Assembly (NCBI RefSeq): GCF_021731785.1
Contig: NZ_JAKFWS010000030.1
Span: 1-33,805, forward strand
DNA length: 33,805 nucleotides
DNA from: Methylocystis sp.
GTDB lineage: Bacteria > Pseudomonadota > Alphaproteobacteria > Rhizobiales > Beijerinckiaceae
Direction: 5' to 3'
This document shows, one piece after another, positions 4,061 to 32,581 of this stretch (the first letter of the stretch is position 1; every line of letters begins with the position of its first letter). The notes under the pieces are model-generated. The model saw only the letters and a list, made by a program, of their open reading frames with translations. It was not told the DNA's origin and ran no database searches. Position numbers and translations under genes: made by a program.

Positions 4061-6928
4061 GTGCGTCTGACAAAATATCTGATCGCTCTCTTTTTGCTCG
4101 TCGCATCCGCTCAGGCCGTGGCCATGGAGTCCGTCAGAGTGCCGCAAGGCGCGCGGGCGATCGATCTCACCAATGTGGTCGAAAACCATTCTTCGCAGGG
4201 CGACCGGCTGCAGGTTTCGACCGCGCCTGGCTCGGACGGCATCGTTCGACGCATCGAGGTCGGCGCCAAGGAGGCGGGCAGCCAGCCCAACTGGATCGTT
4301 TTCGCGCTGACCAACGACACGGACGAGCAGATCGAGCGCCTCATCGTCGCGCCCCATTACCGTCTGCAGGGCTCGGGCGTCATCTGGCCCGATCTCGGCT
4401 CGACGCGCATCTCGGCGATTACGGCGAGCCAGGGATTTGCGCCAGAAGCCGTGGACGCCTCGGACGCTGACATTTTCCGGCTGACGCTCGACCCCGGAAC
4501 GACGGTCACCTATGTCGCGGAGCTGCGCACGCCCAACTTGCCGCAGCTCTACTTGTGGGAGCCCTCGGCCTATAAGGATAAGGTGACGAGCCTCACGCTC
4601 TACAAGGGCATCGTCATCGGCATCGCTGGCTTGCTCGCGTTGTTCCTGACGATTGTCTTCGTGGTGAAGGGCGCGGTCATTTTTCCGGCGGCGGCGGCGC
4701 TCGCCTGGGCGGTCCTGGCCTATGTGTGCATCGATTTCGGCTTCTGGGACAAGATTTTCGGCTTCGACGCCAACGCCAACAGCATCTGGCGCGCCGGCGC
4801 CGAGACCGTGCTCTCGGCCACGCTCGTCGTTTTTCTCTTCGCCTATCTGAACCTCAACCGCTGGCATGTGCGCGCCTGGCATGTCGCGGCGCTGTGGCTC
4901 TTGATCCTGTTGGACCTCGTCGGCCTTGCGGTGTTCGACGCGCCGGTTGCGGCCGGCGTTGCGCGCATCTCGCTCGCGACGGTCGCCGTCGTCGGCTTCG
5001 TGTTGATTCTCTACCTCGCGACGCATGGGTTCGATCGCGCCATCATGTTGATACCGACATGGTTCCTGCTGGCCGTCTGGGTGGCGACAGCCGGATTTGC
5101 GGTCGCCGGCTGGATCACCAACGACCTCGTGTCTCCCGCGCTCGTTGGGGGTCTCGTGCTCATCGTGATGCTGATCGGCTTCACGGTGATGCAAAACGCC
5201 TTCGCCGCCGGCGGGCTGTCGCATGGCGCGATCAGCGACGTCGAGCGCAAGGCCCTCGCGCTGACCGGCGCCAATGAGATCGTGTTCGATTGGGACGTCC
5301 CGTCCGACCACATCTATGTCAGTCCGGAAGCGGAAGCGGCGCTCGGACTCGACCGCGGCGGGCTTGAAGGCGCCGCCTCCTCATGGCTCGACCTGCTGCA
5401 TCCCTTTGAGCAGGACCGCTATCGCGCCTGTCTCGACGCCATCCTCGAGCAGCGGCGCGGACGCATTAACCAAGTTTTTCGCCTACGCGCGGCTGACAGC
5501 CACTATCTCAGCTACCGGCTGCGGGCGCGACCTGTGGTCGGCCCCGACGGCGAGGTGATCCGGGTTGTCGGCACGCTCAATGACGTGACCGACGAACGCA
5601 ACGCTCAGGAGCGGCTGCTGCACGACGCCGTGCACGACAATCTCACGGGGCTGCCGAACCGTGAATTGTTCTTCGACCGTCTGGACGCCGCGCTGATTCT
5701 CGCGCGCATGGAAAAGGACGTGCGCCCGACAATCCTCGTGATCGATATCGACCGCTTCAAACAGATCAATGAGCAGGTCGGCATGGCCATGGGCGACAGC
5801 ATTCTCTTGACCGTCGCGCATCGCCTCACGAGGCTGCTGCAGCCTCAAGATACGCTGGCGCGGCTGTCCGGCGACGCGTTCGCCATCATTTTGGTTTCCG
5901 AGACGCACGTGGACCACGTCATCTCGATCGCCGATTCGGTGCGCCGCGCGCTATCGACCCCGGTGCGCTTCACGGATCGCGAGATCGCACTGTTCGCCTC
6001 GATCGGCATCGCGCTCTACGACCCGCAGACCCATCCCGGCGCCGCCGAAATGCTGGAGGACGCTGAAATCGCGATGCGCCACGCCAAACGCTCGGGCGGC
6101 AACCGCATCGAAGTGTTCCGCCCGGCCATGCGCGCGCAGCGTTCGGACCGCGTGACGCTTGAAGCCGATATGCGGCGGGCGTTGGAGCGCAGCGAGATCA
6201 AGGTTTTCTTCCAGCCGATTGTCCGGCTCGAGGACCGCACCATCGCCGGTTTCGAGGCGCTGCTGCGATGGGATCACCCGCGCCTTGGTCGGCTCGAGCC
6301 TTCCGAATTCATTCCCATCGCCGAGCAGACGGGCCTGATCATCGATCTCGGGCTTCTCGCGCTGGAGCGCACGGCGCGCGAACTCGCGGCCTGGCAACGC
6401 GCGCTTGCGGTCGATCCGCCGATCTTCGCTTCCGTCAATCTCTCGTCGCGCCAGCTTTTGCGGCACGACCTTCTGCGCGACGTAAAGAGCGTGCTGATGC
6501 GCAACGATATCGCCAAAGGCAGCCTCAAGCTCGAACTGACCGAGAGCCTGGTGATGGAGAATCCCGAATATGCGGCGCAGATGCTGACGCGCATCAAGGA
6601 GCTCGGCGCGGGTCTTGCGCTCGACGATTTCGGCACCGGCTACTCGTCGCTCGCCTATCTGCAGCGCTTGCCGTTCGACACGGTCAAGATCGACCGGTCC
6701 TTCATCAAGCAGTCCGGCAAAGGCGCTCGCCCGATCATTCTGCGCTCGATCATCGCCCTGGCGCAGGATCTCGGCCTAGATGTCGTCGCCGAAGGCGCGG
6801 AGACCGAGCGGGACGCGATCGAGCTTTATCAGCTCGGCTGCGGCTACGCGCAGGGCTATGCTTTCGGGCGCCCGATCAGCGCCCGGGACGCCCGCCGCCT
6901 CGTCGGGGCCGCACCGGAAGCGGCGTAG
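4061..6928 (+). CDS. Membrane-anchored PAS-GGDEF-EAL protein, probable c-di-GMP phosphodiesterase
   Basis: The 955-residue product starts at GTG 4061, with AAGAGA a few bases upstream, and begins with a signal sequence (KYLIALFLLVASAQAVA). Residues about 25-180 form an extracytoplasmic domain. About seven hydrophobic segments follow (about 180-380), the layout of 7TMR-DISM sensors. A PAS-like domain (about 400-510) leads to a GGDEF domain whose signature reads SGDAF at 603-607, so cyclase activity is doubtful. The EAL domain keeps EALLRW (732-737), NLSSRQ, ELTES, DDFGTGYSS, VKIDRSFI, AEGAET and QGYAFGRP, the residues expected for hydrolysing c-di-GMP to pGpG. The degenerate GGDEF may be a GTP-sensing regulatory domain, as in Caulobacter PdeA. 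The ligand sensed outside the membrane is unknown. Confidence 0.88.
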   Translation: MRLTKYLIALFLLVASAQAVAMESVRVPQGARAIDLTNVVENHSSQGDRLQVSTAPGSDGIVRRIEVGAKEAGSQPNWIVFALTNDTDEQIERLIVAPHYRLQGSGVIWPDLGSTRISAITASQGFAPEAVDASDADIFRLTLDPGTTVTYVAELRTPNLPQLYLWEPSAYKDKVTSLTLYKGIVIGIAGLLALFLTIVFVVKGAVIFPAAAALAWAVLAYVCIDFGFWDKIFGFDANANSIWRAGAETVLSATLVVFLFAYLNLNRWHVRAWHVAALWLLILLDLVGLAVFDAPVAAGVARISLATVAVVGFVLILYLATHGFDRAIMLIPTWFLLAVWVATAGFAVAGWITNDLVSPALVGGLVLIVMLIGFTVMQNAFAAGGLSHGAISDVERKALALTGANEIVFDWDVPSDHIYVSPEAEAALGLDRGGLEGAASSWLDLLHPFEQDRYRACLDAILEQRRGRINQVFRLRAADSHYLSYRLRARPVVGPDGEVIRVVGTLNDVTDERNAQERLLHDAVHDNLTGLPNRELFFDRLDAALILARMEKDVRPTILVIDIDRFKQINEQVGMAMGDSILLTVAHRLTRLLQPQDTLARLSGDAFAIILVSETHVDHVISIADSVRRALSTPVRFTDREIALFASIGIALYDPQTHPGAAEMLEDAEIAMRHAKRSGGNRIEVFRPAMRAQRSDRVTLEADMRRALERSEIKVFFQPIVRLEDRTIAGFEALLRWDHPRLGRLEPSEFIPIAEQTGLIIDLGLLALERTARELAAWQRALAVDPPIFASVNLSSRQLLRHDLLRDVKSVLMRNDIAKGSLKLELTESLVMENPEYAAQMLTRIKELGAGLALDDFGTGYSSLAYLQRLPFDTVKIDRSFIKQSGKGARPIILRSIIALAQDLGLDVVAEGAETERDAIELYQLGCGYAQGYAFGRPISARDARRLVGAAPEAA

Positions 6929-7069
6929 TCGCGGCGCTGCCCAATGACTGGGGTTCGAGCGTGACGCTTCGACTTCGCCGTCAGTGCGAGCGAAGAATTC
7001 GAGGAGCTGCACGTTTAGAAACCTTGCTTCGAGTGATATGAAATTCCCGTTGATCTGTTCGCTGGGCTT

Positions 7070-7176
7070 GTCATTCCCGGCAGGCCGAAGGCCTGACCGG
7101 GAATCCAGAGCCGATCCAGGAACGCTGGTGTTGCTCTGGATTCCCGATCGCGCGCGTTGCGCGCGTCGGGAATGAC
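7070..7176. repeat. Dispersed palindromic intergenic repeat (nested hairpins) upstream of ligA
   Basis: Outer arms GTCATTCCCG (7070-7079) and CGGGAATGAC (7167-7176) are exact inverted copies. Inner arms ATCCAGAGC (7103-7111) and GCTCTGGAT (7133-7141) also match. Each half folds as its own hairpin (TTCCCGG...CCGGGAA on the left). This is the shape of the extragenic palindromes common in alphaproteobacteria. It fills most of the 299-bp gap between the EAL gene and ligA. Confidence 0.75.
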
Positions 7177-7206
7177 GCCCGAGCAGTTCAAGCCGAAATT
7201 GCATGA

Positions 7207-9345
<2,139 letters not shown>

Positions 9346-9496: not shown

Positions 9497-10144
9497 CTAC
9501 ACCGCCCTTGTTCCCGGCGTGTCGTCCTTGCGATAGGCCGTGCCGAATACGTAGTCCCACCAGATCGCGTGAACGCCGAAGCCTTTCTCGGCGTCGCGGA
9601 AATGATGCAGCATATGCAGGCGCTTCACTAAGCGGCCGAACTCCGTTTTCGGCTGGCCGTGATGGGTCCAGTAATGCACGCAGTCATAGATCACATAGCC
9701 ACTGATGAAGCCGGCGAGCACCGGCCACGCGAATGTCGCGCCAAAAATCAGGCGGGCGCAGACGAGCGCGATCAGCATGATCGGACCCGAGAGTAGCGGC
9801 GGCATGACCAGCCGCAACGGGTCGTTGGGATAGATGTGATGCACGCCGTGGATAAGAAACTGAAAGCGTGGCCCAAGCTCGAAAGGCAGCGCGAACACGG
9901 TGTGAAAGAGATAGCGGTGGCCGAAATATTCAGTGAGCGTCCAGCCGATGTAGCCGATGGCGACGCCCAGCAAGACGAGCGCCGGACCATTGAGCGTGAG
10001 GGAATAGACCAACAGGCCGAGAATGATCGGACAGTAGACGATCACAGGCGTCAGATGATGCACGCGCGACAGCTTGTCGAGAAGATCGCTTTCAAAGAGA
10101 CGGGGCGAAGCGTCGAGCGCTTGTGTTCTTGCGTCCTGCGTCAT
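9497..10144 (-). CDS. Fatty acid hydroxylase of the FA2H/Scs7 type (sterol desaturase superfamily)
   Basis: This 215-residue membrane di-iron protein carries the histidine clusters of the fatty acid hydroxylase superfamily: H76RYLFH81, H99GVHH103, H157YWTHH162, H177MLHH181 and H192. The stretch FLIHGVHHIYPNDPLRLVMPP (from about residue 96) closely resembles the core of eukaryotic FA2H/Scs7, which 2-hydroxylates the N-acyl chain of ceramides. Four hydrophobic segments alternate with the clusters. Its ATG at 10144 lies 3 bp after the desaturase stop, so it is the last gene of a tight operon. The context suggests hydroxylation of a sphingolipid acyl chain or long-chain base at the inner membrane. 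A carotenoid or hopanoid hydroxylase role is a weaker alternative. Confidence 0.8.
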   Translation of the reverse strand: MTQDARTQALDASPRLFESDLLDKLSRVHHLTPVIVYCPIILGLLVYSLTLNGPALVLLGVAIGYIGWTLTEYFGHRYLFHTVFALPFELGPRFQFLIHGVHHIYPNDPLRLVMPPLLSGPIMLIALVCARLIFGATFAWPVLAGFISGYVIYDCVHYWTHHGQPKTEFGRLVKRLHMLHHFRDAEKGFGVHAIWWDYVFGTAYRKDDTPGTRAV

Positions 10145-10147
10145 GGC

Positions 10148-11140
10148 TTACTCCGCCGGCGACATGGCTTGCGCGTCGCGCGCGGCCTGCGTCACATTTT
10201 CCGACCGCGTTCCCAGCGAATAGGTCGGATCAAAGATGAATGTGACGAGCAGCGCCGTCCAGGAGCGATGGCAGCGCAGATCGTCATAAAACTCCGGCGC
10301 CATCGCTTTCAGTTCCGGCAAACGGTTCCACGGAATCTCGTGAAAATCATGATGCTCGTTGTGGTAGCCGATGTTGAGCGCGAGCGTGTTCAGCGGGCCG
10401 TAATAGTCGAACGTTCCCTGATCGGGGCCGAAGGCGAAATGTTCCTGCAGCCAGCGCGCGCTTAAAGGATGCAGGCCGCCGACCGAGAACCAGAAGGAGA
10501 AGAACAGATAGAGCAGGGCGTTCGGCCCAAACGCCAACAGCACGAAGAGATCGAAAAGGGCGATCACGGCGATATTGACATAGGTCCAGGTTCCCCAGAT
10601 CGGCACCGTGCCTTTCAGCCGCGATAGGCGCGCGAGCTGAATGACGGGAAAGAAGAAAATCCACACCGCCTTGCGCCAAGCGCTATTGCCCACCCATTCG
10701 ACTTCCCAGCGGCTCGGAATGTCGGCGTCGTAGTCGTAAGCGGACAGATGCGAATGATGCTTGATGTGGTAGCAGCGAAAGCCCATCGCCGTCGGAAAGG
10801 CGTTGGGGAGATCGGCGAGGATCGCCGTGCATTTATTGGCGAGCGGGCTGTCGAAGACGCAATTGTGGATCGCGTCGTGGATGATGACGAAATTGGCGTG
10901 ATTGGCGAAGGCGCCGACGCAGATCGCCATCACGAGCGACAGCCACCAATAGGAGAGGCCGAGCGAACCTAAGATCGCGGCGATAACAAGCTGACCGGCG
11001 AAAATCGCCGCCGTGATCTTGAACGTCATGGGATCCTTGCCGAACAGCTCGCGCACCTGCGGATATTTTTCCAGAATCAGCTTGCGCCGCTCGACATGCG
11101 AGCGGTCGGCGCCATTGGCCGTGACCGATATGCCGTTCAT
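10148..11140 (-). CDS. DES1-like sphingolipid delta-4 desaturase homologue
   Basis: This 330-residue membrane fatty acid desaturase has three histidine boxes: HDAIH (88-92), HIKHHSH (125-131) and HNEHHDF (260-266). Several stretches resemble eukaryotic dihydroceramide delta-4 desaturase (DES1): the N-terminal RRKLILEKYPQVRELFGKDP, the GLHPLSARWLQEHF segment, and YYGPLNTLALNIGYHNEHHD followed by a tail with YYDDL-like APEFYDDL. DES1 introduces the 4,5 trans double bond of sphingosine. The ATG at 11140 overlaps the stop of the acyltransferase gene by four bases (ATGA), showing translational coupling. The hydroxylase gene follows after 3 bp. Its exact substrate is inferred; it could act on free long-chain base or on ceramide. 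Confidence 0.85.
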   Translation of the reverse strand: MNGISVTANGADRSHVERRKLILEKYPQVRELFGKDPMTFKITAAIFAGQLVIAAILGSLGLSYWWLSLVMAICVGAFANHANFVIIHDAIHNCVFDSPLANKCTAILADLPNAFPTAMGFRCYHIKHHSHLSAYDYDADIPSRWEVEWVGNSAWRKAVWIFFFPVIQLARLSRLKGTVPIWGTWTYVNIAVIALFDLFVLLAFGPNALLYLFFSFWFSVGGLHPLSARWLQEHFAFGPDQGTFDYYGPLNTLALNIGYHNEHHDFHEIPWNRLPELKAMAPEFYDDLRCHRSWTALLVTFIFDPTYSLGTRSENVTQAARDAQAMSPAE

Positions 11141-12351
11141 GACGTTGCTTCCTGTAGCTGAGTCGCCCTGACGCCGTCGCCTGTGCGCATGGCCTCGCCG
11201 CCGCCGCCGACAGCGAGGCGCTTTTCATAGATGCGATGAATCTTGTCGACCTTGCCGCCGAACATTTCAATCGGCCGGCGCATGTCGGCGTTGCTCTCCA
11301 ACACCCAGCCGGCTTCAAGATGCGGAACGGCGAACTTTGCATAGCGTCGCCGCATCTCCTCGATCAGCGCGAGGAAAATCGCGCCGCCGGTCGCGCTTTT
11401 TTGCAGCGTCTTTCGCGTCCCGAGCAACAGCAGCCGCGCCGACTTGAACTGATGCGAGCGGTATCGCCTAAATGCGCGCAGCCAGCCGAAGGGCAGCAGG
11501 CGGCCGTCGAGATCGGCGAGAATCTCGTTGAGATTGGGAAGCGCGACGGCGAAGGACTGCGGCACGCCGTCGAGTTCGACGACGATGCCGAAATCCTCGG
11601 TCACCAGAAATTGCAGCGCGTCGGCGTCGGAATCGAATTCTTCCTTGGTGAAAGGCACGAAGCCCCAATTGCCGCTCCAGCCATCGTTGAACAGTTCCGC
11701 CATCAGCGCGGTTTCGCCCTTCTTCAAGGCCTTCATGTTCAACGGCCTGAGCTTCAGGCGATTGCGCCATTCGCGGCGCGTCGAAATGCGCGCCGGCTGG
11801 TCGATGTCCGCGCTCGAAATTTCGAAGCGATAGGAGAGGAGGTCTTGCGCCTTCTCATAGCCCAGCGCCTCGATATGGCGCGAGAGATAGGGCGGATGCC
11901 AGGGCATGAAAAACATCGGCGTAGCGTCAAAGCCCTCGACGAGCAGACCACACTCCTTGTTGACCGACGGCGAGAAGGGGCCGTTGATCCGCTCCGCGCC
12001 CCTGGCGCGTAACCAATCCTCAGCGGCTTGCGTCAGCGCGCGCACGACCTCGATATCGTCGACGGCGTCGAGCGCGCCGAATTGCGCATTAGAGGCGCCG
12101 ACCGGCGTGATCTCGGGCTTATAGACCTGCGCCATGATCCGCCCGACCCATTGGCCATCGCGGCGGGCAAGAAACTTTTGCTCCTCGACGAGCTTGTAAT
12201 GCGGGTTGAGCTTATGCGCGAAGACGCTCCATCGCTCAACGTCGAGCGGCGGCGCAAAGCCTTGCGCGCCGGCGTAGAGCAGCCGCGGCAGCCTGCAGAA
12301 GGTCGCGAAGCGCAGGGGGCCATCGACCGGAAGAATCTCGATCCGCGCCAT
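11137..12351 (-). CDS. GNAT-fold acyltransferase-like protein, candidate ceramide synthase
   Basis: This 404-residue soluble protein starts at ATG 12351, with AGGA seven bases upstream; a TTG two codons earlier is less likely. It has the look of the two-domain GNAT-like family: an N-terminal segment with GFAPPLDVERWSVF and FLARRDGQWVGRI, a central NGPFSPSVNKECGLLVEG, and a C-terminal half with LLLLGTRKTLQKSATGG and a closing DKIHRIYEKRL. No direct functional match is known to me. Its place between an alpha-oxoamine synthase and two ceramide-modifying enzymes suggests it attaches an acyl group to the long-chain base. From memory, the bacterial ceramide synthase of Caulobacter is also GNAT-related, but homology to it is untested here. 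It overlaps the desaturase gene by four bases. Confidence 0.6.
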   Translation of the reverse strand: MARIEILPVDGPLRFATFCRLPRLLYAGAQGFAPPLDVERWSVFAHKLNPHYKLVEEQKFLARRDGQWVGRIMAQVYKPEITPVGASNAQFGALDAVDDIEVVRALTQAAEDWLRARGAERINGPFSPSVNKECGLLVEGFDATPMFFMPWHPPYLSRHIEALGYEKAQDLLSYRFEISSADIDQPARISTRREWRNRLKLRPLNMKALKKGETALMAELFNDGWSGNWGFVPFTKEEFDSDADALQFLVTEDFGIVVELDGVPQSFAVALPNLNEILADLDGRLLPFGWLRAFRRYRSHQFKSARLLLLGTRKTLQKSATGGAIFLALIEEMRRRYAKFAVPHLEAGWVLESNADMRRPIEMFGGKVDKIHRIYEKRLAVGGGGEAMRTGDGVRATQLQEATS

Positions 12352-12415
12352 ATGCAAGTCCTAGCGGCCGCGGGGCCTTAATCGAAAGCGTCAAAGTGAC
12401 GCGGGAGGCGGACGC

Positions 12416-12469
12416 CTAGAGCAAGTTCCGAAAAAGTTTACAGACTTTTTCGATTAGAACTTGCTCTAG
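12416..12469. repeat. Long perfect palindrome between the SPT-like and acyltransferase genes
   Basis: CTAGAGCAAGTTC (12416-12428) pairs exactly with GAACTTGCTCTAG (12457-12469). Inside, CGAAAAAGT (12429-12437) pairs with ACTTTTTCG (12444-12452). The result is about 22 bp of stem broken by a 4-nt bulge, in a 177-bp gap within the lipid cluster. It is probably a dispersed palindrome that could act as an attenuator or an mRNA processing and stability element. Confidence 0.8.
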
Positions 12470-12528
12470 CTTAAAAATTTGGCGCGATTTCTTATCGATC
12501 AGACGATTCCGTCTGGTCTGAAAGCACG

Positions 12529-13767
12529 CTAGCCGCCCGCCATCGCTGCGGCGACGATCTGATGCGCCTCGTCCGTCACCGGCGGCATGTCGCGCAGCGT
12601 CTGGATGACGCCGCGGATCTCCGCTTCGTTGTGATTGGCGGAGAAGAAGAAGCGCAATCTTGGCCCATCCTTCGGCACGCCGATGCGCACCACCGGCGGC
12701 ACGTAATAGCCGTTCTCCAGCAGATGCCGCGACGCCCACATCGTCTCGACGTCGCTCGAGAACAGGATCGGCACGACGCCGCGGCCGATCGCCGGCCCGG
12801 TGGAGAAGCCCGCCTCATGCGCCACGGTTCGGAAGAGTTCGGCGTTGCCCGCGAGCTTGGCGACGCGCCAGGTCTCTTCCTGCATCAGCCGCAGCGCGGT
12901 GCGGGCCGCGGCGAGAATGACCGGCGACAGGCCGACGCTGTAAACGAAGCCGGGCAGCGTATAGCGGAACCAGTCGATGACCTGCTTCTTCCCGCAGACA
13001 TAGCCGCCGCAGGAGGCGAGAGTCTTCGACATGGTGCCGACGATGAGGTCGATGCGCGCCGGATCGACGCCCTGATGTTCGGCGAGGCCGCGGCCTGTCG
13101 CGCCCAAGACGCCGAGCGAATGCGCTTCGTCGACCAAGAGCCAGACCTGATATTTGTCCTTGATCGCGAGCAGGCGCGGCAGGTCGGCGGTATCGCCGTC
13201 CATGCTGTAGACGCCTTCCACGACGATGAGGACGTTGCGGTATTCCTGGCGATGGCGCGCCAGCAGATGGTCGAGATGATCGAAGTCGTTGTGGCGGAAC
13301 TTGACGACCTGCGCCGGCGCGCCGTCGGCGCCGGCGACGATGCTGTTATGGGCGAGTTCATCGATGAAGATCGCGTCGCGCTTGCCGCTCATCAGCCAGG
13401 CGATCGTCGTGACATTGGAGAGATAGCCCGAGACCAGCGTCAGCGCGCTTTCCATGCCGAGGAATTCGGCGATCTCGGCCTCGAACGGCCGATGCGTCGT
13501 GCGCTCGCCGCCGACAAGCCGCGAGGCCAGCGCGCCGATGCCGAGGCCGTCGATCTCGCGCTTCGCCTCCTCGCGAATGCGAGGGTGATTCGCGAGGCCG
13601 AGATAGTCGTAATTGGCGAAGCTGACGAAATGCTTGCCCTGCGCCTCGAATTCGGCCCGCAGCTTGTCGATCTGGGCGAAGAACGGATCGCTGAACTCCA
13701 GCAAAGCGTTGCCAGCGAAACGGAACCGCCTTGCCGCGTAATCCTCTAGGCTCTTATGCTTCGTCAC
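12529..13767 (-). CDS. Serine palmitoyltransferase-like alpha-oxoamine synthase
   Basis: This 412-residue PLP enzyme belongs to the alpha-oxoamine synthases, which condense an amino acid with an acyl thioester and release CO2. The PLP lysine is K248 in GTMSKTLASCGG. The cofactor-binding DEAH is at 213-216, a stacking histidine at about 140 (DELAHNS), and FANYDYLGLANHPRI forms the N-terminal motif. The start is a GTG at 13767 with GGA just upstream; no in-frame ATG occurs until about residue 105. Relatives include BioF, KBL, HemA and SPT. The downstream sphingolipid-type desaturase and hydroxylase argue for serine plus a long acyl-CoA or acyl-ACP giving 3-ketosphinganine. The reductase that must follow is not in the window. 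Confidence 0.75.
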   Translation of the reverse strand: MTKHKSLEDYAARRFRFAGNALLEFSDPFFAQIDKLRAEFEAQGKHFVSFANYDYLGLANHPRIREEAKREIDGLGIGALASRLVGGERTTHRPFEAEIAEFLGMESALTLVSGYLSNVTTIAWLMSGKRDAIFIDELAHNSIVAGADGAPAQVVKFRHNDFDHLDHLLARHRQEYRNVLIVVEGVYSMDGDTADLPRLLAIKDKYQVWLLVDEAHSLGVLGATGRGLAEHQGVDPARIDLIVGTMSKTLASCGGYVCGKKQVIDWFRYTLPGFVYSVGLSPVILAAARTALRLMQEETWRVAKLAGNAELFRTVAHEAGFSTGPAIGRGVVPILFSSDVETMWASRHLLENGYYVPPVVRIGVPKDGPRLRFFFSANHNEAEIRGVIQTLRDMPPVTDEAHQIVAAAMAGG

Positions 13768-15906: not shown

Positions 15907-16350
15907 TTAGCTGAGAGAGGCCCAAAGGAAGACCAGAGTTGCAGCGCAGCCGAGGGCGGCGCGCACCGAATGTAGCCGCGCCCAGCTCTTGATCAGCTTG
16001 CGGCTTTCCGGCCCAGCTTCGATTGGATCAATCGCCATGAGCCGCTCGTTGACGGGCATGATTTTCAGGAGCGTATAAGGCCAGTTGGCGACTATGAGCG
16101 CGGCGCCTAAAAGCCAGAGCCATTGGCCTGTTTGCCACCATGCCACGGCGCCGAAAACGCCTCCAAGCAACGCGATCGGCGCTTGCATGGCGAAGCCGCG
16201 CTTATAGGCGGGCTTCCATTGTCTCAGCAGACTCTCGTCGTTGAGTTCCAGTCGCGCCGGTTGCTCGGCGACAATGATGTAGAGCGCCGCGCCAGAGAAT
16301 ATGGCTGCGGCGATCAGTGCGAACTGGCCCATAATCATGTCATCGCTCAT
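15907..16350 (-). CDS. DUF1772-like four-helix membrane protein
   Basis: This 147-residue protein has four hydrophobic segments: near residues 8-27, 55-72, 75-95 and the C-terminus. It carries the NERLMAIDP segment after the third helix, which recalls the DUF1772 (anthrone oxygenase-like) family. No catalytic residues are established for bacterial members, so the role is unknown. The ATG at 16350 is followed by two more methionines at residues 5 and 7 that could also serve. It is read in the same direction as the crotonase gene, whose stop lies about 80 bp upstream. Confidence 0.7.
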   Translation of the reverse strand: MSDDMIMGQFALIAAAIFSGAALYIIVAEQPARLELNDESLLRQWKPAYKRGFAMQAPIALLGGVFGAVAWWQTGQWLWLLGAALIVANWPYTLLKIMPVNERLMAIDPIEAGPESRKLIKSWARLHSVRAALGCAATLVFLWASLS

Positions 16351-31080: not shown

Positions 31081-31197
31081 TGCTTCCCCGTGCTTCCCCC
31101 ACATTGACAAGTAGCTGATTTCAGGTGACTCTCCATTTACTGCTCGTTTCCGGGAATGGATATTGTTTCCTGTGTCCTGCTTCCCCGGTGCTTCCCC
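31081..31197 (+). repeat. Four copies of TGCTTCCCC near the element end, candidate integrase arm sites
   Basis: TGCTTCCCC occurs at 31081-31089, 31091-31099, 31178-31186 and 31189-31197: two close pairs about 90 bp apart, between the tRNA fragment and the integrase start. Direct repeats in this place are typical of arm-type sites bound by the N-terminal domain of tyrosine integrases. The role is inferred. Confidence 0.55.
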
Positions 31198-31209
31198 GGA
31201 CCTTTCCTA

Positions 31210-32490
31210 ATGCCAAAGCTCACGAAGCGGATCGTCGACAGCCTAGCGCCCAAGCCAGACGGCGACGTGTGGTCATGGGATAACGAATTGCGAGGTTTCG
31301 GCGTCCGCCTGAAACCATCGGGCGCGGCCTCTTATGTCGTTCAATACCGAACGGCGCAAGGGCGCACCAGGAGACTGGCTTTCGCCAAGATCGGGACAAT
31401 CACGCCCGACGAGGCTCGGACAAAAGCCAAGCGGCTGCTGGCGGCTGCCGAATCGGGCGGCGATCCTTCCGCCGAGCGCCACGAGGCGCGTGAGGCGCTA
31501 ACCGTCGCCGAGCTTTGCCAACGCTACTTGGCGGCTGCCAACTCTGGCCTCGTTGCGACACGCTTTCGCAAGCAAAAGGCGCAATCGACCATTTACAACG
31601 ACAAAGGCCGCATCGCGCGACACGTCGTGCCCTTAATCGGCGACAAAGTCGCCCGCGCCCTCACCAGGGCGCAGGTCCAGCGGATGGCCGACGCCATCGC
31701 CGCCGGGAAAACAGCCGCCATTATAAAGACCGGAACGCGCGGACTCGCCATCGTCGAGGGCGGCGCTAGCACGGCGGGGCGAACCGTCGAGTTGCTCGGC
31801 GGCATATGGACATGGGCCGAAAGACGCGGCTTCGTCAGCGGCCCAAATCCTACGCGCGGCGTTGAAAAGCATCGCGGCGAGCCTAAGGACCGCGTCCTGA
31901 CGCCGGACGAGCTTGCAAAGCTTGGGGCCGCATTGCGCGATAAGACGGCGATTTACCCTATGGCTGCCGCCGCGGTTCGCTTGATTGCGGTCACAGGTCT
32001 ACGGCGAGAAGAAGCTGTCGGCCTGAAATGGGGGGAGATTGACGCTGCGACGCAATGCTTGCGACTTGAATCCACGAAGACCGGTCGCTCCATGCGCCCT
32101 ATCGGCAAGCCGGCGCTGCAATTGCTCGCAAGCCTTCCGCGCCTTCACGGCGAGTGGGTTTTCCCGAACCAACTGGGGACCGGGAGCGCCGAACTGAAAA
32201 AACAAATAGCCGCCATCTTCGACGCAGCAGGGCTGAACGACGCACGCTCGCACGATCTTCGCCGCACATTTGCGAGCGTCGCAGCGGACGAAGGCTACGG
32301 CGACTCGACGATCGGCGAAATGCTCGGGCATGCCCGCCGCGGAGTGACGGCCCGGCATTATATCCGCCGGCCAGACGCGGCGTTGATCTGTGCCGCCGAC
32401 AAGACGGCCGAGCGCATTGCGCGTGCGATGGACGGGACGCGCAGCGGCGACGTTGTGGCGTTGAAGAAAACAGGCGGCGACGCCGCATAA
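31210..32490 (+). CDS. Tyrosine-type site-specific integrase (P4-like, DUF4102 N-terminus)
   Basis: This integrase inserts and excises the element at a tRNA gene. The start is [20 protein letters not shown] at 31210. The 426-residue product has an N-terminal DUF4102 arm-binding domain (about 1-85, with [13 protein letters not shown]), a SAM-like core-binding domain (about 95-205) and a C-terminal catalytic domain. The catalytic set looks complete: R265 (TGLRREE), K290 (STKTGRS), H348 and R351 ([10 protein letters not shown]), H374 (MLGHARRG) and the nucleophile Y384 (TARHYIRR). It is read away from the tRNA-Val fragment, in the direction of the element interior. Confidence 0.95.
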
Positions 32491-32581
32491 ACAGACGCGC
32501 AGGGATAGGCCGGCCAGCCGACAAGCGAGAACGTCCACTCGTTTCCCTGCGCTTCCATTGGACGCTCGCGAAGGACGCGCG

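Follow-up and report, generated by a model that had tools for sequence, protein, structure and literature searches.

Can a bacterium make a ceramide and then desaturate and hydroxylate it with enzymes of eukaryotic type? This question is raised by a four-gene block in a stretch of Methylocystis sp. DNA of 33,805 nt (the window), which was analysed together with its host genome (labelled G000, 4.2 Mb in 197 contigs). The block encodes, in order of transcription, a serine palmitoyltransferase (SPT)-like alpha-oxoamine synthase (AOS), an N-acyltransferase of the CerS/YghO family, a DES1-like sphingolipid desaturase (DES) and an Scs7/FA2H-like fatty acid hydroxylase (FAH). An earlier reading of the window from its sequence alone (the sequence-only reading) had proposed that these genes form a ceramide pathway. 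That proposal is supported by the homology of the acyltransferase to YghO, the Lipid_DES domain of the desaturase, the match of the hydroxylase to Scs7, the conservation of the block and the linkage of similar genes in other phyla. The block probably makes and finishes a ceramide, and its predicted product is a 4,5-unsaturated, 2-hydroxylated sphingolipid.

The four-gene block

Four co-oriented frames were found on the minus strand where the sequence-only reading had placed them. The AOS gene (12529..13767) starts with GTG and encodes 412 aa. The open reading frame of the acyltransferase opens at TTG 12357 (406 aa) and has an ATG 6 bp further in, from which the gene spans 11137..12351. The desaturase gene (10148..11140) encodes 330 aa with an N-terminal Lipid_DES domain, and the hydroxylase gene (9497..10144) encodes 215 aa corresponding to the catalytic domain only. 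The coupling of the last three genes can be read directly in the DNA: the stop codon of the acyltransferase and the start codon of the desaturase overlap in a 4-bp ATGA (11137..11140, minus strand), and 3 bp separate the desaturase from the hydroxylase. A gene caller based on codon usage, for which seven window genes including AOS and desaturase served as the training set, chose the same four genes. The gene order is kept in all 11 other genomes of the genus that were opened, both flanks being different in one of them (L126) and one flank in another (L125). This conservation argues that the block is not due to chance.

Assignment of the four enzymes

Over 381 of its 406 residues, the acyltransferase shares 38.6% identity with E. 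coli BL21 YghO (E 3e-89). YghO is a published ceramide N-acyltransferase candidate, and the available part of PMC9386255 lists it as the acyl-CoA N-acyltransferase of dihydroceramide synthesis. CC_1154, its Caulobacter counterpart, is named CerS in the available part of PMC11324152. Near-full-length homology thus places the window protein, on sequence grounds, in the bacterial ceramide synthase family (CerS/YghO/CC_1154). It had been described as GNAT-like. This holds insofar as a relative (P0196) scores above the Acetyltransf_1 (GNAT) cut-off, but the protein, itself without a Pfam domain, belongs to this known CerS family. Its alignment has 46 invariant columns in 13 rows.

The desaturase scores 36.9 bits on Lipid_DES (curated Pfam cut-off 23) and is also over the cut-off of FA_desaturase. 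Lipid_DES occurs once in the host genome, in two of the 385 genomes of the class (host included) and in none of 14 control genomes. The three histidine boxes announced by the sequence-only reading are present (H88DAIH92, H125IKHH129 and H260NEHH264), and their eight histidines are invariant in 14 rows. By the domain and the boxes the protein is assigned to the DES family. Several Methylocystis proteins are among its best named relatives. In one source, 'sphingolipid delta-4 desaturase' already appears among the automatic labels, so this gene family has been seen before.

PF04116 (FA_hydroxylase, 59 bits) is the one Pfam domain of the hydroxylase. Among solved structures, only two forms of Scs7 were matched at E <= 0.001; the match to SCS7 (4zr1, 86.9 bits) covers residues 21-210 and the histidine motifs agree. 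Twelve histidines are invariant in eight rows. The predicted FA2H/Scs7 likeness was thus borne out for the catalytic domain.

The AOS contains PF00155 (aminotransferase class I/II, 162.7 bits) and its top matches among solved structures are the serine palmitoyltransferases 8guh/3a2b (210.7 bits). Its identity to E. coli BL21 Spt is 33% over 382 columns. K248, proposed as the lysine binding pyridoxal phosphate (PLP), lies in GTMSKT and aligns with the PLP lysine of the SPT, BioF, Kbl and ALAS rows. In a 32-row tree, the AOS falls in a 16-row clade (support 100/100) that includes three synthases linked to polyketide synthases (PKS). BioF, Kbl and ALAS lie outside this clade, with a support of just 77/83 for the separating split; the grouping with BioF/KBL that would have spoken against a sphingolipid role did not occur. 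Relatives with 42-45% identity, from the same taxonomic order, lie after a large gene; L128 was the one locus scanned, and there this gene is a type I PKS. By sequence, the AOS is classed as SPT-like, outside the canonical Spt type and grouped with PKS-linked synthases.

Conservation of the block and similar loci in other phyla

At the DES loci of the named genomes described below, genes were counted as present at 100 bits (60 bits for FAH) within the locus sequence covered. Genome searches scored up to 19 or up to 9 candidates per genome, and absences are to be read within these numbers rather than as absolute. AOS matches below 419 bits (the PKS-linked type) were excluded from the counts of the AOS clade. 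For the ketoacyl synthase (KS) discussed below, matches below 500 bits were excluded from the clade counts, save for a partial 370-bit match in G551.

An AOS orthologue was found in 24 of the 25 genomes of the genus and not in G022 (89% complete). Of 199 genomes of the family, 52 contain DES and 54 contain a member of the AOS clade; 51 contain both, and in 46 of these 51 the two genes lie within 5 kb of each other. Fisher values for the co-occurrence take no account of common descent, and the counts are therefore given without them. The co-occurrence in relatives that the sequence-only reading had proposed to survey is thus observed, mostly as adjacency.

Named genomes were scanned with the desaturase alignment, and 80 of at least 515 confirmed places were kept. 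AOS/SPT was present at 48 of these 80 loci, AOS/SPT with CerS at 42, FAH at 36 and all three at 29. Of the first 25 loci (59-96% identity), 24 have both AOS and CerS, and the sequence of the remaining one, L161, starts within the desaturase. Cultured bacteria with the block include Methylocystis rosea SV97 (L140), Methylocapsa acidiphila B2 (L151) and Methylocella tundrae (L158). Among the 55 remaining loci, SPT/AOS was present at 24, SPT with CerS at 18, FAH at 22 and all three at 15, and 31, many from Bacteroidetes and several short, have no SPT in the DNA covered. In soil Verrucomicrobia, Chthoniobacterales and one Acidobacteria metagenome-assembled genome (MAG), the usual order is DES-FAH-SPT-CDP-alcohol phosphotransferase-CerS, from which L186 and L196 deviate; the CDP-alcohol phosphotransferase was confirmed by Pfam scan in L168 and L185. 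The SPT of these loci falls in a different tree clade from the window AOS. A Saprospiraceae MAG (L203) has the order DES-FAH-SPT-CerS followed by a CerR-like epimerase (27%, 124 bits). DES and FAH are therefore found beside ceramide genes in other phyla even where the SPT differs, and the association holds across SPT types. That CerS, DES and FAH keep company with SPT elsewhere supports a ceramide role for the Methylocystis block.

Further genes were seen at some of these loci. Two DES loci from Afipia sp. (L206) and Rhizobiales dw_265 (L214) carry LptF/LptG permeases (scanned in L206), GT4-type glycosyltransferases and a short-chain dehydrogenase/reductase (SDR; scanned in L214), as well as an AOS (53% and 42%, respectively). 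They point to a further glycosphingolipid cluster equipped with export genes of its own. At L173, an MMPL-family gene (6853-8940) lies directly upstream of a Verrucomicrobial DES-FAH-SPT-CerS cluster, and its product is possibly a lipid transporter.

Missing steps and a second locus

Several results given in this section and the next weigh against a ceramide pathway. No convincing orthologue of AcpR or CerR was found in the host genome (best scores 23.6 and 46.5 bits). AasR has one good match in the host (303 bits), which lies in a 965-aa frame that also has an ACP-like stretch, and none in G006, a genome that has the block. For comparison, two genomes of the same order gave 48.6 bits for AcpR, 495 for AasR and 175 for CerR (G028), and 473 for AasR, 46 for AcpR and 97 for CerR over half its length (G038).

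A large protein of the host (G000:C2, L136, 6542-9367) combines an ACP-like stretch with an AasR-like acyl-AMP-ligase part (34-35%). Two more AasR-like ligases follow it. These genes form a separate cluster for acyl activation, of which G006 has no match.

The sequence-only reading had proposed a genome search for a 3-ketosphinganine reductase and an acyl carrier protein (ACP). The canonical partners were not convincingly found, but candidates were recovered in a second locus, on host contig C28 (L259, 8663-14324). It encodes an ACP, a KS, a small protein, a MaoC dehydratase, an SDR, a family 21 glycosyltransferase (GT21) and a family 2 glycosyltransferase (GT2). All seven genes were called in seven of the eight genus genomes opened (host included) and six in the eighth. 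In the family, the C28-type KS clade occurs in 50 of the 52 genomes with DES. Positions of KS and DES were compared in 49 genomes (the KS position in G551 being left out), and in 15 of these, all of other genera, the two lie no more than 12 kb apart; in six genomes of the genus the distance is about 42-84 kb. At L150 a C28-type cassette adjoins the block and an extra SDR directly follows FAH. In Beijerinckia sp. L45 (L163), a version of the cassette without GT21 stands beside AOS, CerS and DES. In G481, which has AOS and CerS and no DES match, the gene of the AOS (52%) overlaps by 4 bp with that of an SDR sharing 42% identity with the C28 SDR, and this pair adjoins CerS, ACP, KS and MaoC. In G584, ACP, KS, SDR and a distant CerS (32%) stand in a row about 4 kb from the AOS. 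On the strength of this co-occurrence and adjacency, that in G481 and G584 included, the C28 SDR is the leading candidate for a 3-keto reductase, and the C28 ACP is a candidate acyl carrier.

The same locus also supplies counter-evidence. Unrelated SDRs reach 33-34% to the C28 SDR, so the 42% match in G481 is modest, and in the PDB the C28 SDR matches generic SDRs. One genus includes nine genomes that have the KS core but neither DES nor an AOS of the window type, two of the nine having a PKS-type AOS match. In two of these nine genomes that were opened, SDR, GT21 and GT2 are not beside the KS, which indicates that the ACP-KS-dehydratase core has another use there.

GT21 is present in C28 and is also found directly after DES in Methylocapsa acidiphila. 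The C28 GT21 matches the solved ceramide glucosyltransferase 26qf with 111 bits; another GT21 of the host, taken as a control, matches it better (147 bits), and G022, which has no AOS, has a GT21 with a profile score similar to that of the control. Given these scores, glycosylation of a ceramide by the C28 GT21 is kept as plausible.

A second KS, 69% identical to that of C28, is encoded elsewhere in the host (G000:C52, L271, 5896-7119), where the rest of the cassette does not adjoin it. An extra copy of this kind is present in nine of ten genus genomes.

Proposed pathway and alternatives

In the proposed pathway, the AOS would condense an acyl thioester, perhaps carried on the C28 ACP, with serine to give 3-ketosphinganine. 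The 3-keto group would be reduced by the C28 SDR, and the CerS-family enzyme would acylate the amino group before or after this reduction. The DES1-like enzyme would then insert the 4,5 double bond and the Scs7/FA2H-like enzyme would hydroxylate the N-acyl chain at position 2. GT21 and GT2 of C28 could add sugars. We infer all the substrates, the order of the steps, the regiochemistry and the head group.

The alternative that survives best keeps the ceramide pathway and changes one step. The DES1-like enzyme would be a C4-hydroxylase, or bifunctional like eukaryotic DES2, and would lead to phytoceramide. We consider this unlikely, though worth keeping in view: delta-4 desaturase is the commoner name among the labels listed, even if these labels are automatic.

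It is less probable still that the AOS makes another aminoketone, that is, an alanine- or glycine-derived 1-deoxy base or the precursor of an alpha-hydroxyketone, and that the product of the block is an N-acylated aminolipid rather than a classical sphingolipid. The AOS is under every NCBIfam SPT equivalog cut-off (289.4 of 500 bits for NF047599, 273.6 of 640 for NF047600 and 203.3 of 670 for NF047603), whereas a canonical Spt (L131) reaches 587.9 bits against the cut-off of 500; it also shares its clade with the PKS-linked synthases. The SPT-like character claimed by the sequence-only reading is thus retained as regards the nearest structures and the motifs, but the enzyme is not of the canonical Spt type. 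Against another aminoketone, the AOS is closer in its motifs DEAHSLGVLG and GTMSK to the Spt rows than to those of BioF, Kbl and ALAS, and the partners CerS, DES and FAH suit a ceramide. Moreover, SgaAB of Pseudomonas fluorescens MYb115 is a PKS-AOS pathway for which the available part of PMC12134224 reports sphinganine production and an SPT activity of SgaB. By analogy only, this activity would support an SPT step in Methylocystis.

A third possibility is that DES and FAH are ordinary acyl-lipid enzymes, acting on phospholipids or hopanoid-related substrates, and stand beside a ceramide operon by history only. Within the DNA covered, no AOS/SPT is present at 32 of the 80 DES loci (several of them short) and no FAH at 11 of the first 25; at the other 14 the FAH is present, the copy of L151 being on the opposite strand. 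Two further points count against the proposed pathway in general. In the family, AOS occurs without DES in three genomes (G444, G481 and G569) and DES without AOS in one (G551, 76% complete). The hydroxylase of 215 aa has no cytochrome b5 domain in the Pfam scan; an N-terminal cytochrome b5 domain is usual in FA2H/Scs7. Against an acyl-lipid role, DES and FAH of Verrucomicrobiota, Acidobacteriota and Bacteroidota stand with another type of SPT and with other genes for the head group, Lipid_DES is over its cut-off and rare, and in the window the genes are coupled by the 4-bp overlap and the 3-bp gap. An acyl-lipid role for the two enzymes is accordingly regarded as improbable.

Finally, a role of the AOS as an additional biotin or heme enzyme, in a bacterium that makes no sphingolipid, can practically be dismissed: the top NCBIfam score of the AOS is for BioF (340 bits, also below its cut-off of 426), but the host has another BioF-like gene (343 bits, below the cut-off as well) beside AAA_26 (BioD-type) and class III aminotransferase (BioA-type) genes, it has two ALAS genes over cut-off, and the tree and the partner genes disagree with such a role.

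Surroundings of the block

Between the AOS and the acyltransferase genes, a 54-bp palindrome with 13-bp arms (12416..12469, minus strand) is predicted by folding to form a strong hairpin. The region 12400-12530 has a minimum free energy of -48.9 kcal/mol (z -5.8), and no T-run follows the hairpin. The gap in which it lies measures 177 bp here (to the ATG) against 39-78 bp (to the called starts) in the eight relatives measured, so the hairpin looks like a recent insertion. Among 281 loci, only those of the window itself (L001 and L005) have both arms, and L016 and L139 have one. The hairpin could tune the expression of the last three genes.

The block is flanked by housekeeping genes. On one side this is ligA; on the other are a ccmA-like ABC ATPase gene, ccmB and a gene with an anthrone oxygenase domain, together with genes for enoyl-CoA hydratase, class A penicillin-binding protein and amidase. 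The anthrone oxygenase domain (PF08592) belongs to a small protein encoded at 15907-16350, between ccmB and the enoyl-CoA hydratase gene. Further away, a phage-type integrase gene (PF00589) and, directly after it, an int-alpA RNA (RF02996, 32498-32564) occupy 31156-32564; together they suggest that an element has integrated at the edge of the window.

Relation to known systems and implications

Like the Rhodobacterial ceramide system (Spt, AcpR, AasR, CerR and CerS), present in Caulobacter crescentus and E. coli BL21, the block has an SPT-like AOS and a near-full-length CerS homologue. It differs in that the host lacks convincing AcpR, AasR and CerR and falls outside that system, in that CerS is coupled to the modifying enzymes DES and FAH, and in that another ACP and SDR would come from the C28 locus. 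The likeness to SgaAB is one of arrangement: the 42-45% AOS relatives follow a large PKS-type gene, domain-scanned in one case. Unlike in SgaAB, no PKS was found among the scanned window genes or, judged by length and BLAST labels, beside the block in 11 genus loci. The host has instead an ACP-KS-dehydratase-SDR cassette elsewhere, together with CerS, DES and FAH. With the finishing of eukaryotic ceramides by DES1/DEGS1 and FA2H/Scs7, followed by ceramide glucosyltransferase, the block shares the Lipid_DES + FA_desaturase architecture and an FA_hydroxylase that matches Scs7. In contrast to the eukaryotic enzymes, the hydroxylase is devoid of cytochrome b5 and the acyltransferase is of the bacterial CerS family; the likeness is one of domains and structure matches.

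The block is therefore classed by its CerS and its context as a bacterial ceramide pathway, with a desaturase assigned to the DES family by domain and a hydroxylase that corresponds to FA2H/Scs7 in its catalytic domain. In the available parts of the literature, the described bacterial ceramide pathway leads to dihydroceramide. No description of such an operon was found in the literature searched, the coverage of which was incomplete. As far as these searches show, what is new is the setting of the desaturase gene family in a ceramide operon, the family itself being already labelled.

A wider scheme is put forward tentatively, as a real possibility rather than the expected outcome. Bacteria of at least three phyla may have assembled a eukaryote-like finishing kit (DES1-like and FA2H-like enzymes) around different SPT types and head-group enzymes. 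Methylocystis and its relatives would make 4,5-unsaturated, 2-hydroxylated glycosylceramides, with a dedicated ACP-KS-SDR cassette in place of AcpR, AasR and CerR. On this view, counterparts of the eukaryotic finishing enzymes, and possibly their ancestors, would exist in bacteria.

Candidate genes (SDR, ACP, KS and GT21) can now be named for the steps that the window alone leaves unfilled. If the ceramide pathway is correct, unsaturated, 2-hydroxylated sphingolipids, an unusual type of bacterial membrane lipid, are predicted in methanotrophs and in soil Verrucomicrobia. DES1 and FA2H would gain simple bacterial models, the reading of these lipids as markers of eukaryotes in soil and sediment would be affected, and the origin of the eukaryotic finishing enzymes would become testable.

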